Below, piece after piece: positions 22,820 to 62,112 of a DNA stretch of 64,000 nucleotides. Positions within the stretch are counted from its first letter, which is position 1, and each line of letters starts with the position of its first letter. The stretch is from Acetobacterium woodii DSM 1030 (GTDB taxonomy: Bacteria > Bacillota > Clostridia > Eubacteriales > Eubacteriaceae). Under the pieces are notes generated by a model that worked only from the letters and a program-made list of their open reading frames with translations, had not been told where the DNA came from and made no database searches. The DNA lies in the NCBI RefSeq assembly GCF_000247605.1, contig NC_016894.1, forward strand, positions 868,001 through 932,000, read 5' to 3'. A program made the translations under genes and the position numbers.

Positions 22820-22913
22820 CTAATCTTCGAGGATGACGATTAGATTAAGAAGGACTTTTAGCATGCGATCAGGATTATCAAAGGCGATAACTTTTTTTGT
22901 TGTCGCTTTTTTT
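22820..22913 (+). promoter_or_regulatory. Candidate ANTAR-type antiterminator/terminator leader, amtB1
   Basis: First hairpin: CTAATC / GATTAG (22820-22843) with inner loop GAGGAT. Second hairpin: TTATC-AAAGGC-GATAA (22875-22890), a six-base loop with A at position 1 and G at position 4. The 3' half of the second hairpin is the 5' arm of an intrinsic terminator (GCGATAAC / GTTGTCGC, then a T-run, 22884-22913). Mutual exclusion of hairpin 2 and terminator is the known layout of RNAs bound by ANTAR antiterminators. The first loop starts with G rather than A, which weakens the match. Confidence 0.65.
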
Positions 22914-25097: not shown

Positions 25098-25193
25098 GTC
25101 GGGTAGTCAATGAAGACGATCGACGCTAAAAAGAACGTTGTGGCATGATTAAGATTTATCAAAGGCGATAACCTTTTTTTGTTATTGCCTTTT
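25098..25193 (+). promoter_or_regulatory. Candidate ANTAR-type antiterminator/terminator leader, amtB2
   Basis: First hairpin 25098-25124: GTCG/CGAC outer pairs and GTC-AATGAA-GAC inner, six-base loop with A1 and G4. Second hairpin TTATC-AAAGGC-GATAA (25156-25171), again A1 and G4. The terminator GGCGATAAC / GTTATTGCC plus T-run (25164-25193) uses the same bases as the second hairpin. Both loops fit the ANTAR RNA consensus, and the second hairpin is identical to that of the first amtB leader. Confidence 0.72.
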
Positions 25194-28497: not shown

Positions 28498-29679
28498 ATG
28501 AATGAAATTTTAAGGATGTCAATGAATGAGATGGCAGAGGCAGATTTTGACTGCTCCTGTGGCAGGCATCACAGCTTGCCAATAAAAAAAATTGCCATTG
28601 GTAAAGGGGTCATTAACCAGCTTCCCGAGGTTGCGGCAGCATTTAAAGGCAAACAAGTTTATATGATCAGTGATAACAATACCTGGAAAGCCGCCGGCGA
28701 AAAAGCCAATCGCATGATGACTGAAGCCGGTTTTGAAATTAAAAACTATATCTTTGAACGGGGTAAAGAAATTCTTATTCCCGACGAATTGGCGATCGGC
28801 AGAATGTTACTTGAGATGCCCCTTGACACCGCTTTAATTGTTTCGGTCGGTTCCGGAACACTTAATGATATGGCGAAATACCTTTCATCACGAACCGGGG
28901 TTCCTTATATTATTGTTTGCACAGCGCCCTCAATGGATGGGTATGTCGCCGATGGCGCCCCGTTGATTTGCAATGGCCAAAAAATATCGTATGTGGCAAC
29001 CTTAGCTTACGGCGTTGTTGGTGATACTGATATTATGAAAGCAGCACCAATGCATATGATCCATGCCGGATTAGGTGATGTGTTAGGTAAATTAACGGCT
29101 TTGACAGATTGGTCATTGGCGGTTGCAATGATTCATGAATATCGTTGTGATACCTGTGTTAAGTTAGTTGAAGAAGCGCTTCAAAAATGTATCACCAACG
29201 CGCCGTTGTTAAAAGAAAGAAATGAAGAAGCCATTTTATATTTAATTGAAGCATTGACATTAACCGGGGTTACAATGGCGATTGTAGGGGTTTCTCGACC
29301 GGCGTCAGGTTCAGAACATTTGCTTTCTCATTATTGGGAGATGGATTTTATTGCCCGTCACAAATACCCGGAACTGCATGGCATTAAGGTGGGAATCGCG
29401 ACGCCGATTGTAGCCGAAATTTATGAGCTGTTAAAAGATGATTTACCAGCGGAAACAAAAGCACTTGTGCCGCGACGGGAATTTGTTGAAAAGTTGTTAC
29501 GCAGTGCCGGTGCGATGATTTCGCCCAAAGAGGTTGGGATTGAACGGGAACTTTTCTATCGGAGTTTGATGGAAGCGAACACTGTTCGTAAACGTTATAG
29601 TGTTTTTCAATATGCAAAAGATCAGGGCCGATTGGAAGAAGTGGCAGAGATAATCACCGAAAGGATTTATGGAAAATGA
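28498..29679 (+). CDS. sn-Glycerol-1-phosphate dehydrogenase (AraM/EgsA-like)
   Basis: 393 residues, Fe-ADH_2 family of metal-dependent, NAD(P)-linked dehydrogenases that reduce dihydroxyacetone phosphate to sn-glycerol-1-phosphate. The dinucleotide site (SVGSGTLNDMAKY), the metal region beginning PSMDGYVADGAP and a metal His in MHMIHAGLGDVLGK are visible. The N-terminus CSCGRHH is typical of bacterial AraM. The stop overlaps the start of the next gene, which encodes an AraL-like phosphatase; araL-araM also pair in the B. subtilis arabinose operon. Confidence 0.88.
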   Translation: MNEILRMSMNEMAEADFDCSCGRHHSLPIKKIAIGKGVINQLPEVAAAFKGKQVYMISDNNTWKAAGEKANRMMTEAGFEIKNYIFERGKEILIPDELAIGRMLLEMPLDTALIVSVGSGTLNDMAKYLSSRTGVPYIIVCTAPSMDGYVADGAPLICNGQKISYVATLAYGVVGDTDIMKAAPMHMIHAGLGDVLGKLTALTDWSLAVAMIHEYRCDTCVKLVEEALQKCITNAPLLKERNEEAILYLIEALTLTGVTMAIVGVSRPASGSEHLLSHYWEMDFIARHKYPELHGIKVGIATPIVAEIYELLKDDLPAETKALVPRREFVEKLLRSAGAMISPKEVGIERELFYRSLMEANTVRKRYSVFQYAKDQGRLEEVAEIITERIYGK

Positions 29680-44860: not shown

Positions 44861-45244
44861 CTAAAATGCATCCGCATTTTTTTCGCCACTACGCACCCGA
44901 ATGGACTCTTCAATTGGGATGACGAAAATTTTACCATCGCCGGGATTTCCGGTTTGATTGGTGTCAATAATAATGGAAACGACTTTATCGACATCTTCAT
45001 CTTCAACAATTAAGGTAAAAAATCTTTTTGGAATCAAGCGGGTTGGTTCCGTTAAAGCTTCGCCAACTGTTGAGATCGGCATTTCTCCAGCGTCAACGAT
45101 ATCTTGAACGATCGATAAATCAATCGTTTTTTTGCCACGGCCAAGCACCTTTAAACAGGTAAAAGCGGGATAACCATCTTTGACAAGGGCTTCTTTGGTC
45201 TGGTTTACTTTATTCTGTCGAATAATTGCCATAACTTCTTTCAT
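44861..45244 (-). CDS. nifI2: Nitrogenase PII regulator NifI2
   Basis: 127 residues, PII-like with extended T-loop and C-terminal GDGKIFVIPIEESIRVRSG. NifI1 and NifI2 form a complex that inhibits nitrogenase after ammonium addition and releases it when 2-oxoglutarate rises. Position between nifH and nifD is the usual one in strict anaerobes and methanogens. Confidence 0.95.
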   Translation of the reverse strand: MKEVMAIIRQNKVNQTKEALVKDGYPAFTCLKVLGRGKKTIDLSIVQDIVDAGEMPISTVGEALTEPTRLIPKRFFTLIVEDEDVDKVVSIIIDTNQTGNPGDGKIFVIPIEESIRVRSGEKNADAF

Positions 45245-45259
45245 ATCATTTCCTCCTTC

Positions 45260-45586
45260 TTAAAGGCCGGGTTTGCCAGTACTGATTGTATATGCTTCTG
45301 TTACAGGAGAAATAAAAATACGACCATCTCCAAAAGTACCTTCCTTGCCAGTTTTTGCATTTTTCATAATTATTTTTACAACATCATCTTTATCTTCATC
45401 GTTGACAATACACAGGAGCATTACTTTGGGGATTTCATCATAATGAACATCACCAACTTTAATTCCTTTTTGCTTGCCGCGTCCGTAAACATCTAATTTA
45501 GTAACCGCGGAGTAATCAGCGGATAACATTTCGGATAATACAACCCCAACTTTTTCGGGTCTGATAATTGCTCTGATCATTAACAT
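45260..45586 (-). CDS. nifI1: Nitrogenase PII regulator NifI1
   Basis: 108 residues. PII fold with GDGRIFISPVTEAYTI; the T-loop differs from GlnK (RGKQKGIKVGDVHYDEIPK). Works with NifI2 in direct post-translational control of the MoFe protein. AAGGAAG precedes the ATG; a second in-frame ATG follows two codons later. Confidence 0.95.
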   Translation of the reverse strand: MLMIRAIIRPEKVGVVLSEMLSADYSAVTKLDVYGRGKQKGIKVGDVHYDEIPKVMLLCIVNDEDKDDVVKIIMKNAKTGKEGTFGDGRIFISPVTEAYTISTGKPGL

Positions 45587-45614: not shown

Positions 45615-46460
<846 letters not shown>

Positions 46461-46489: not shown

Positions 46490-46690
46490 TATAAAAAAAG
46501 ATCCTAACCCGTCACTCTAATGTAGTGGGTTAAGACCTCTTCGTCTAAGGATTAGGTATAAAAGAAGTCTTAATTCATCACCGAAAAGTGAAAAATTAAG
46601 ACTTCTTTGTCTAAAGGGGGAGGATTGCCATAAACAAAAAAGAAGTCTCATCCAGTTACACATTGGTAACGAGTTGAGACGACATTGTCT
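46490..46690 (-). promoter_or_regulatory. nif leader: three tandem hexaloop hairpin/terminator units
   Basis: On the minus strand each unit has a hairpin AGAC-N6-GTCT whose 3' strand begins an intrinsic terminator. Unit 1: loop AATGTC at 46677-46690, terminator 46645-46680. Unit 2: loop AAAGAA at 46599-46612, terminator 46565-46604. Unit 3: loop GAAGAG at 46533-46546, terminator about 46501-46536. T-runs follow each. Loops 1 and 2 have A1 and G4 as in ANTAR RNA; loop 3 has G1. The whole gap 46437-46981 holds these units, the promoter and upstream repeats, and no gene. Confidence 0.75.
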
Positions 46691-46726
46691 TGGTGAAATC
46701 CATATTGCATTGTTTTCTATGGGCTA

Positions 46727-46755
46727 ATTATCCACGGAACGAGTGGATAAGTCAA
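46727..46755 (-). promoter_or_regulatory. nifH promoter with palindrome between -35 and -10
   Basis: Minus-strand TTGACT (46750-46755), 17-base spacer, GATAAT (46727-46732). An inverted repeat TTATCCAC-N7-GTGGATAA (46728-46750) fills the space between the boxes and overlaps both, so a protein bound there would compete with RNA polymerase. The half-site resembles a DnaA box, but the symmetrical arrangement is more operator-like. Confidence 0.75.
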
Positions 46756-46820
46756 GTTTCTTTAATTGTAAACCCTTTTCAGTCTTCCGATGTCTTAAGA
46801 ATAGGAGAATTGAGCACGGC

Positions 46821-46981: not shown

Positions 46982-47932
46982 TCAACCACAACTGGAACAG
47001 GAAGCGCAATCTCCACAGGATTTTTTCATTGGATCATGAACCAGAATTGCCCGGACCGTAGCAGTATTTAGATCAACGACGACAATATCATCTTGAATGA
47101 TTTCCATTTTGTCAGTGCTGAAAACAATGGTCATCGGCTCGGGAACCATGACATCCGGGTCCAAAGTACCTGGTTTCATTAAAGGCTGGACAAATTGCTT
47201 GCCATCTGGCGTTGTAATCATCAATCCGTTATTGCTGGTGATTAAAGATCTTAAAATACCACCAGATGAATAGGTTACCGAATTTTGGTCACAATTGATA
47301 CCGTGGGCCGTGCTGTCATAGGCAATCACTATTCCGACCGGAGTAACAATTGGTTCCGGAAGGGCTGGTTCAAAACTTTTCAAGGTGCCGTTTTCATAGA
47401 GTGAAAAGCCATAACGCACTTTCACCAACCCATCAGGACCAGTAATTTCAATGGTTTCCTGAGGCCACATCGTTAAACTTTTCAAGGTGCCGCTTTCATA
47501 AAAACAAATACTGATTACTTTGGCTGAAAAGGAGCCCACCGGTAAATCAAAAGAAATCGGCTTGGCTAGTTTATATTCATCATTTTCGGTCCAGAAGCCG
47601 TTGATTCGACCATTGAGTGGAAATAATCGTTGGATTCGGCCGTTTTCATAAAAGCTGATCCGTTCAGCGGATAAATTTCCCTGAGACGTGATTACTTCAG
47701 TGGCATTTTCCAGGTCAATACTTTTGATTTGACCGCTTTTGAAAAACTCCAGGGAGAGACCTTGTCGATTTCTTAAATTAGCGGCACCGTGACTGGGCGT
47801 CAGAATGCCAATGGGAGTATTGATGTTATTTGGTTCTTCAAAGGCACAACCTTTTATTGAGCTATCGGCATAAGTTTCTAAAAACGTAATGCCATTAAGC
47901 GTACCGTATTTTTCAGTTTTGTATGTTGTCAT
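46982..47932 (-). CDS. MORN/YwqK-like repeat protein with C-terminal CxxCxxCxxC tail
   Basis: 316 residues. Repeated units of about 20-50 residues with the pattern (F/Y)YE(N/S)G.(L/I)(K/R)SL, for example ISFYENGRIQRLF, ICFYESGTLKSLT and FSLYENGTLKSFE, as in MORN-like beta-hairpin repeats. The last residues are CGDCASCSSCG, four Cys spaced by two, suited to a metal or Fe-S site. No signal peptide or membrane segment. It follows the AnfO-like gene by 12 bases and precedes the nif promoter, same strand. I do not recognise a characterised family; a nitrogenase accessory or metal-handling role is inference from context. Confidence 0.75.
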   Translation of the reverse strand: MTTYKTEKYGTLNGITFLETYADSSIKGCAFEEPNNINTPIGILTPSHGAANLRNRQGLSLEFFKSGQIKSIDLENATEVITSQGNLSAERISFYENGRIQRLFPLNGRINGFWTENDEYKLAKPISFDLPVGSFSAKVISICFYESGTLKSLTMWPQETIEITGPDGLVKVRYGFSLYENGTLKSFEPALPEPIVTPVGIVIAYDSTAHGINCDQNSVTYSSGGILRSLITSNNGLMITTPDGKQFVQPLMKPGTLDPDVMVPEPMTIVFSTDKMEIIQDDIVVVDLNTATVRAILVHDPMKKSCGDCASCSSCG

Positions 47933-47944
47933 GATAAACTCCTA

Positions 47945-48583
47945 TTATTCACACACAACAGGGGTGATAATGACATGTTGTGTAGAATCATTTTTATTTT
48001 GGATGGTATAGCTAAAATTTAGTTCCGATAATTTGTGTTCAAACCATGGCGGGATGTGTTCACAGACTACTTCCAAGGCGTAAAAAGGGGTATCTTTTAA
48101 AAATGGCAATAGTGCCATTTTTGAACTCATTTCCGGGTGTTTTTTCTGTACCTGGGTTAAATCAATAAAATAATGTCCCGGTTGATCGGTTTCTTTAGGC
48201 GTATTCGCTAACAGCAGTTCATCTTCTTTTATTTCAGCATCAATTTTGGCTAAATCGGATTGAATGGTATCCAACAATTCCAGATCAAAAACTTCTGATT
48301 CGCAGATGATGAAACCGGCTTTGTCAAAAACCTGATAAGGGATTCCGGTTAAGGATTTGGTGATGATGATTTTGCAGTTATTAAAAACATTTATCATTTG
48401 ATGGATATTTTCGCGGATCGCAGTCATGCCCCCCGATAAATCTGGCTTACAAGGAATCATGTCAGATTTTTGCCAGATGGATTTTTCCTTGGTGTAAAAA
48501 ACAAAATTGGTCATTTCGTCGAACCGGGCAATCCGCTTGGCATCATCACAAAAAACAGCCATTACGTTTACATTTTCTTTCAT
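47945..48583 (-). CDS. anfO: AnfO-like nitrogenase accessory protein
   Basis: About 212 residues. N-terminal region resembles AnfO, found with Fe-only nitrogenase: FCDDAKRIARFDEMTNFVFY, followed by CKIIITKSLTGIPYQVFDKAGF. The start ATG 48583 has GAGGTG seven bases upstream. AnfO function is poorly known. Here it is beside a Mo-type nif operon, with no anfD, anfG or anfK in the window. It is the first gene of a pair with the Cys-tailed repeat protein. Family assignment is by recognition of the sequence pattern and should be confirmed by profile search. Confidence 0.75.
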   Translation of the reverse strand: MKENVNVMAVFCDDAKRIARFDEMTNFVFYTKEKSIWQKSDMIPCKPDLSGGMTAIRENIHQMINVFNNCKIIITKSLTGIPYQVFDKAGFIICESEVFDLELLDTIQSDLAKIDAEIKEDELLLANTPKETDQPGHYFIDLTQVQKKHPEMSSKMALLPFLKDTPFYALEVVCEHIPPWFEHKLSELNFSYTIQNKNDSTQHVIITPVVCE

Positions 48584-48872
48584 TTGTTCACCTCGTTTTA
48601 ATTGAATCATGGCTTTATTACCCGTTTTGAGCCTAAGTGTTGCTTAGCGGTAGGCATGAGAAAACAGTAATAAGACCGGTTGCGATTGAGTTTTAAATTT
48701 ATCACTAACGCAGGGGATCATTTTAAAACAGAATTGCTTAAAATTAGTTGTAGTATAGCATAGAAATGAAAAAGTACGACTTAATTAAGCGTAAAAGCAA
48801 AAAAAAACGATTGCAGAAAATTTAAGCGAAAAATAGGGGGACGTTTTTTGATGCAAAAAAGAAAAATAAAAA

Positions 48873-62036: not shown

Positions 62037-62112
62037 GATCTCGTAGCTCAGCTGGCAGAGCACTACCTTGACATGGTAGGGGTCGATGGTTCAAGTCCAT
62101 TCGGGATCACCA
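62037..62112 (+). tRNA. tRNA-Val (anticodon GAC)
   Basis: Acceptor stem GATCTCG / CGGGATC, D arm GCTC...GAGC, anticodon stem CTACC / GGTAG with loop TTGACAT (anticodon GAC at 62070-62072), T arm GATGG-TTCAAGT-CCATT, and an encoded CCA end. Confidence 0.97.

Follow-up and report, generated by a model that had tools for sequence, protein, structure and literature searches.

The nitrogenase operon of Acetobacterium woodii DSM 1030 lies on the minus strand of the window, the 64,000-nucleotide stretch of DNA that we analyzed from a genome of 4,044,777 bases in a single contig. The first gene of the controlled operon, nifH (45615..46436; TIGR01287, 458 bits, above cut-off), is followed by two P-II-like genes in the nifI1 and nifI2 position (44861..45586, minus strand; P-II matches below cut-off) and preceded by a leader of about 280 nt. 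A sigma-70-type promoter, TTGACT-N17-GATAAT (46727..46755, minus strand; 10/12 in a promoter scan), predicts a transcription start near 46720. It is separated from the first leader element by a 36-nt stretch conserved in the genus (CCCATAGAAAACAATGCAATAYGGATT; 46691..46726, minus strand). Further upstream stands a conserved box, GAAAAGGGTTTACA (46767..46780, minus strand), that begins exactly 25 bp before the start of the -35 in all 15 leaders of the genus, one of which carries GTAAAGGG (GTAAAGG); it is likely a site for a DNA-level regulator. The next gene upstream of the promoter (46982-47932) encodes a protein that matches MORN_2 below threshold and is rich in Cys at its C-terminus, and a similar-looking protein closes a second nitrogenase cluster of the genome (L070 314-1261). 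An AnfO-like gene (PF09582, 201 bits; 47945-48610) adjoins the nifH operon, away from that second cluster.

The leader holds three units, each made of a weak hairpin, AGAC-N6-GTCT, whose GTCT arm doubles as the 5' arm of a strong intrinsic terminator. An initial annotation had described these shared-arm units, and we found them where it placed them, all on the minus strand. Unit 1 comprises the putative antiterminator hairpin AGAC-AATGTC-GTCT (46677..46690) and a terminator at about 46680-46645 with its U-tract at 46644-46636 (46636..46680 overall). Unit 2 comprises AGAC-AAAGAA-GTCT (46599..46612) and a terminator at about 46607-46562 with its U-tract at 46566-46560 (46560..46607). Unit 3 comprises AGAC-GAAGAG-GTCT (46533..46546) and a terminator at about 46542-46495 with its U-tract at 46499-46493 (46493..46542). 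The hairpins were located by sequence and by a unit detector, and the terminators are supported by the detector and by folding, that of unit 2 also by two-sided changes. The description of the terminators as serial also agrees with the sequence, in which three terminators, each overlapping its own hairpin, end in U-tracts.

A chance origin of the three nif units is excluded; among 2000 dinucleotide shuffles of the leader, 1980 held no unit, 20 held one and none held two or more. The detector asks for a stem of at least 4 pairs, a loop RNNGNN and a terminator 5' arm overlapping the hairpin 3' arm. Run over both strands of the whole window (128 kb), it returned six matches: the three nif units, two amtB leaders and one match at 29485, which sits within coding sequence and was dismissed as chance. 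Its U-tract rule misses real units, as it recovered 34 of the 46 units of the hairpin pattern in the nif leaders of the genus. The fold of the nif leader has a z of -4.99, that is, 5 standard deviations below its own shuffles. Folded alone, units 1, 2 and 3 reached -14.9, -24.2 and -21.9 kcal/mol with the terminator versus -7.7, -10.5 and -11.8 kcal/mol with the hexaloop enforced, while the hexaloop hairpins by themselves gave -2.3, -2.3 and -3.2 kcal/mol. Folding in the absence of protein prefers the terminators by 7-14 kcal/mol, and enforcing the hexaloop leaves a shortened terminator stem that no longer adjoins the U-tract. Because the terminator states are the more stable by folding, termination is the predicted default and some factor must hold the hairpin. 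The three nif terminators all escaped a simple terminator scan, probably because it accepts no interrupted stems and no loops outside 3-8 nt. Rfam gave no match in the nif leader at the gathering score, the only one in the window being a tRNA at 62037; below gathering, leader matches had E values of 0.2 or worse, none convincing.

We searched 19 genomes of the genus, 15 of which gave a nifH at least 89% identical together with its leader. Among the others, the gene was split over contigs in G006, whose leader was left out of the count, the best copy in G009 was 64% identical and G007 had nothing close. The closest named NifH relatives belong to A. paludosum, A. tundrae, A. bakii, A. dehalogenans, A. 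fimetarium and A. wieringae. Comparison with other acetogen nif leaders, which the initial annotation had proposed as a check, showed at least three hairpins in 15/15 leaders, with three in 14 of them and five in that of A. fimetarium (L015, named from the matching record L084). All 15 carry a TTGAC-GATAAT promoter with a 17-bp spacer; a start downstream of the units had been named as what would speak against the switches, and this conserved predicted promoter lies upstream of every unit. The stretch between the -10 and unit 1 measures 36-38 nt in 14/15 leaders, is strongly conserved in most and contains a hairpin with a G4 hexaloop in none of the 15.

Conservation of the loops is specific. 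Across 47 hairpins of the genus, position 1 is A in 39 and G in 8, position 2 is A in 46, and position 4 is G in 46. The first hairpin of L015, with the loop AACAGG, lacks G4. In the window all three loops have G4 and two have A at position 1, the third having G; GAAGAG, which had been thought to fit the ANTAR consensus only at G4, is by the genus counts an ordinary loop variant. Detector units scored by loop position 4 gave G 34, A 1, C 2 and T 0 in the 15 genus leaders, and G 16, A 4, C 2 and T 1 in 65 nif leaders outside the genus; by position 1 the counts were A 29, G 5, C 0 and T 0, and A 12, G 4, C 0 and T 0, respectively. Units were present in 13 of the 65 outside leaders versus 0-3 (mean 1.0) in ten shuffled sets. 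The detector found none at nifH copies 77-79% identical (L019 in G011; L073-L075 in G015 and G018), none in seven leaders of named Clostridium species (L087, L089-L091, L093, L095, L097) and none at a 67% copy in G005 (L077) apart from one match taken as chance. The same view was taken of other-strand matches in L004, L010, L015 and L016, and of matches in L031, L037, L042, L043, L057, L064, L065, L206, L209, L207 (at 2502) and L211 (at 398).

In the terminator stem of unit 2, aligned over 10 of the 15 leaders (L010, L011, L015, L016 and L017 left out), 95.5% of cells are paired and two-sided changes occur in 5 of 20 pairs. Such changes fill 12 cells, a count reached in 0/500 shuffles; five changed pairs were reached in 47/500, and the further pair types in 426/500. 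The hairpin stem of nif unit 2 is invariant and therefore yields no covariation. Between operons, the hairpin 5' arm reads AGAC, TATC or TAAC, and in other genera AAGC, GGAC, GGGC or AGGC, with matching partner arms. In an alignment of 16 units, arm pairing is circular, since the units had been found by pairing, and selection imposed the purine at position 1 and G4; the loop-closing pair alone was not imposed, and it is C-G in 16/16. Seven more nif units also close with C-G (L092, L094, two in L098, two in L099, and L137).

Units of the same type precede other operons. Both amtB leaders in the window carry TTATC-AAAGGC-GATAA followed by a terminator on the plus strand, at 22875..22910 for amtB1 (detector 22880) and 25156..25192 for amtB2 (detector 25161). 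Elsewhere in the genome, units stand before amtB3 (L002 1997), in a group reading as glnN-glnK-amtB3, before the second nifH (L070 6330), and before two corrinoid-protein/mttB clusters (L033 5285 and 11108); judged by this motif, methylated-amine use may belong to the nif/amtB regulon. By our reading of gene labels, the second nifH cluster has a small gene between its D- and K-like genes, a feature in which it resembles Fe-only nitrogenase clusters. The corresponding NifH type, 63-64% identical, has a unit in 5/5 genus loci (L020, L070, L071, L072, L076), and tandem units also occur at amtB of other species (L207, L208). The set of nif, second nif, three amtB and mttB is a lower bound for the regulon.

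Genome-wide, the pattern AGAC-N6-GTCT occurs at 22 places, 11 of which we examined (three nif, two in L033 and one each in L034-L039); six have a detector unit, namely the three nif places, the two in L033 and one in L036. At least two of the other 11, at 208167 and 3396905 on the minus strand, have A1 and G4. The unit in L036 (1372, minus strand) reads AGAC-AAAGTT-GTCT with a terminator and lies ahead of a 387-aa open frame. The pattern TATCAAAGGNGATA is present in 17/19 genus genomes and its reversed control in none; two of its five places in the A. woodii genome, 1761083 (within an open frame) and 2753543, have no terminator unit and were dropped. A unit with an amtB-type stem, TATC-AAAGGT-GATA, stands at the start of a membrane-protein-like frame (L211 2090, minus strand), and this 14-mer recurs in several genus genomes.

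ANTAR targets as described join a first hairpin, P1, to a second, P2, and the linker between them spans 2 to 25 nt in a curated collection (PMC8164766); for EutV, P1 is reported to be obligatory in vivo (PMC8934654). No P1-like hexaloop lies within 25 nt of any of the 47 nif hairpins of the genus (7.7% expected from shuffles), and none precedes unit 1 in the 15 leaders. Within 48 nt, 3/46 have one versus 14.6% in shuffles, unit 3 of the window being among the three (TTC-GGTGAT-GAA, at 27 nt). The proposal in the initial annotation of an ANTAR-type switch is supported by the loop, with G4 in 46/47 and a purine at position 1 in 47/47, and is corrected in that a described target has two hairpins, of which the nif units have only the second. 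With one defining feature absent and the others present, the nif leaders would be ANTAR-like in their working but a variant.

The idea that the whole regulon lacks P1 was rejected after P1 was found in part of the amtB leaders. The amtB2 leader has the hairpin GTC-AATGAA-GAC (25106..25117, plus strand) 38-39 nt before P2. Among 16 amtB leaders of the genus, defined by a detected unit and an AmtB start downstream, a hairpin with a G4 hexaloop lies 36-41 nt upstream in 8, that of amtB1 having U as its first loop base; in 3 others the sole candidate is a three-pair stem at 32 nt, and 5 have no P1 in the 25-45 nt interval, some of these possibly being second units. The missing P1 is therefore claimed only for the nif, second nifH, amtB3 and mttB units. 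In the 13 unit-bearing nif leaders outside the genus, P1 is found within 25 nt in four (L120, L128, L131, L136), a weak candidate in one (L099, second unit) and none in eight; when the search was extended to 60 nt, candidates also appeared in L099 (at 34 nt) and L098 (at 46 nt). The predicted -10 in L092, L094 and L101 lies just 11-13 nt before the hairpin, which leaves no room for P1; L104 looks alike by eye, and its promoter failed the scan.

The initial annotation had raised the possibility of one factor for the amtB and nif leaders, and a search of the genome with PF03861 found a single ANTAR protein (55.3 bits, over cut-off), in keeping with that idea. Its gene (L002 7133-7714) begins 27 nt after glnA (L002 5738-7105). 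Analyzed by itself, the protein has an ANTAR domain (PF03861, 53.3 bits) and a receiver domain (PF00072, 31.3 bits), both over cut-off, and matches the structure chains 1s8n and 6wsh. By alignment, it lacks the phospho-acceptor, with Asn at the position of EutV Asp54 and Val at Ser82. Of the other EutV residues, Arg142 is missing as well, Lys143 is replaced by Gly, Tyr164 by His and Arg177 by Ser; as EutV contact residues are changed in the sole ANTAR protein, its binding to the units is not assured. In an alignment of 48 ANTAR loci, two of which (L055, L058) entered as a wrong frame or fragment, Asp54 is absent from 18 proteins of the host family, all encoded after a glutamine-synthetase-like gene, and from two of uncultured Clostridia (L168, L169). 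These 20 all have His at Tyr164, none has Arg142, and Lys149, Glu160 and Met172 are kept throughout. Asp is retained in two further glnA-linked ANTAR proteins (L167, L173), and two more Asp-less ANTAR proteins belong to other kinds (L158, L166). ANTAR proteins are present in 38/40 genomes of the host family. The genome of L099 (a 2.0 Mb MAG with two units) gave no ANTAR match. A tie between the missing P1 and the pseudo-receiver was rejected, as four Negativicutes with one-hairpin nif leaders have complete ANTAR receivers; three of their four ANTAR genes adjoin a kinase-like gene by our reading.

Other explanations for the leader are far less probable. The arms AGAC and GTCT form a perfect inverted repeat and could be a DNA operator for a dimeric DNA-binding regulator, next to terminators that coincide with it, and a separate conserved DNA box does stand upstream of the promoter. 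An operator would keep its arms and leave the loop free, whereas here the arms vary between operons and the loop is constrained and asymmetric (purine at 1, G4); the loop runs in the sense of transcription, and hairpin and terminator are fused, so that we regard this reading as very unlikely. Just as unlikely is that the units are plain, unregulated terminators for the gene ahead of them (46982-47932), serving to insulate nifH, with the nifH promoter downstream. Serial terminators are able to insulate, and a weak promoter-like match occurs at 46515-46488 (9/12), but in 15/15 leaders the units come after the conserved promoter, and the preference for G4 would be left unexplained.

The strong structure, the terminators and the metabolic operon would also suit a ligand-binding riboswitch or a T-box type leader, which we hold to be still less probable given the Rfam results and a conserved pre-terminator part that is a 14-nt hairpin, presumably too small for known aptamers. 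Attenuation by a ribosome translating a leader peptide seems the least probable of the four. An ATG does lie between the -10 and unit 1 in 14/15 leaders, opening frames of 7 to 56 codons, but the length and sequence of these frames vary, no ribosome-binding site is apparent ahead of the ATG, and L015, which lacks this ATG, still has the units.

Taking the sequence evidence as a whole, we hold with considerable confidence that the nif leader is a series of three ANTAR-type, protein-dependent antiterminators within a nitrogen regulon, with termination as the default. Each switch most likely stops transcription unless a nitrogen-linked RNA-binding protein opens it. RNA polymerase would start near 46720 and, when nitrogen is plentiful, halt at one of the three strong terminators; given the weakness of each AGAC-N6-GTCT hairpin, these would be the structures that form unaided. 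Under nitrogen shortage, the glnA-linked ANTAR protein would grip each hexaloop through G4 and stabilize the hairpin, removing the GTCT arm from the terminator and parting the leftover stem from the U-tract; with all gates open, polymerase would read through into nifH. We infer that sensing goes through glutamine synthetase or P-II and not through phosphorylation. The effects of the three gates would multiply, so that leakage would be low and the response steep. Arithmetically, if each gate lets little pass without the protein and most with it, leakage is the product of the three and full expression is little hurt, which would account for the tight shut-off of a costly operon. At units 2 and 3, the protein would most likely be recruited by the hairpin of the unit before, which in most leaders lies 50-70 nt upstream; this suggests a relay in which each antiterminator would serve as the recruiting P1 for the next terminator. 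We rate independent gates and a relay as equally open. A fuller proposal, in which a lone hexaloop is a complete antiterminator, the protein is relayed from unit to unit and the regulator is coupled to glutamine synthetase, cannot be phosphorylated at the usual Asp and uses RNA contacts of its own, is tentative and somewhat more likely to be wrong than right.

To our knowledge, no established nif regulator is known for acetogens and clostridia, and a limited literature search named none. The leader offers a concrete candidate for nif control in acetogens: an RNA-level switch, one protein and a set of shared operons (nif, second nif, three amtB, mttB). In Geobacter sulfurreducens, the ANTAR protein GnfR reportedly controls nif genes by antitermination and is said to be phosphorylated by histidine kinases, unlike the presumed mode of the candidate described here. 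The NitR gene of Clostridium acetobutylicum reportedly follows glnA, a gene order as in A. woodii, and we know of no nif role for NitR. NitR is described as an antiterminator for ammonia assimilation (PMC4676874). A precedent for a non-phosphorylated pseudo-receiver is AmiR of Pseudomonas aeruginosa, an ANTAR protein controlled by a partner (PMC3369936); that partner is the amide-binding AmiC, whereas the neighbor of the A. woodii ANTAR gene encodes glutamine synthetase.

ANTAR targets have been predicted before nitrogenase genes (Ramesh 2012, PMC3369931), so the novelty here lies in the one-hairpin form and not in ANTAR control itself. The same source predicts nitrogen regulons, with nitrogenase for Pelobacter and others for Desulfotomaculum reducens and acetoxidans, in which such targets stand ahead of genes for nitrogenase, for ammonium transport and for glutamine/glutamate synthase; all were found with a two-hairpin model, unlike the nif units. 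For D. acetoxidans it counts 13 ANTAR attenuators, spread over six transcription units (PMC3369931); the initial annotation knew of no described leader with three such units, but several attenuators within one transcription unit are already on record. Within the open-licence literature, screened by titles and abstract starts, and the available portions of PMC12316311 and PMC2700814, nothing appeared on Acetobacterium nif leaders or one-hairpin ANTAR targets.

Among the closest known counterparts is EutV/EutVW at the eut genes of Enterococcus faecalis, which shares with the nif leader a G4 hexaloop in a hairpin overlapping an intrinsic terminator and several units in one gene cluster, there before four genes (PMC3369931, PMC8934654, PMC3369936). 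The two systems differ in that EutV leaders have P1 and P2 whereas the nif units have the P2 equivalent only, and in that the EutV receiver is phosphorylated while the candidate protein lacks the phospho-acceptor Asp. ANTAR proteins are reported to contact G4 and the stem backbone whatever the stem sequence, and the same work asks why a target should require a second hairpin if a EutV dimer binds just one (PMC8934654). Natural leaders with one hairpin per terminator, three of them with a predicted -10 only 11-13 nt before the hairpin, make this question testable.
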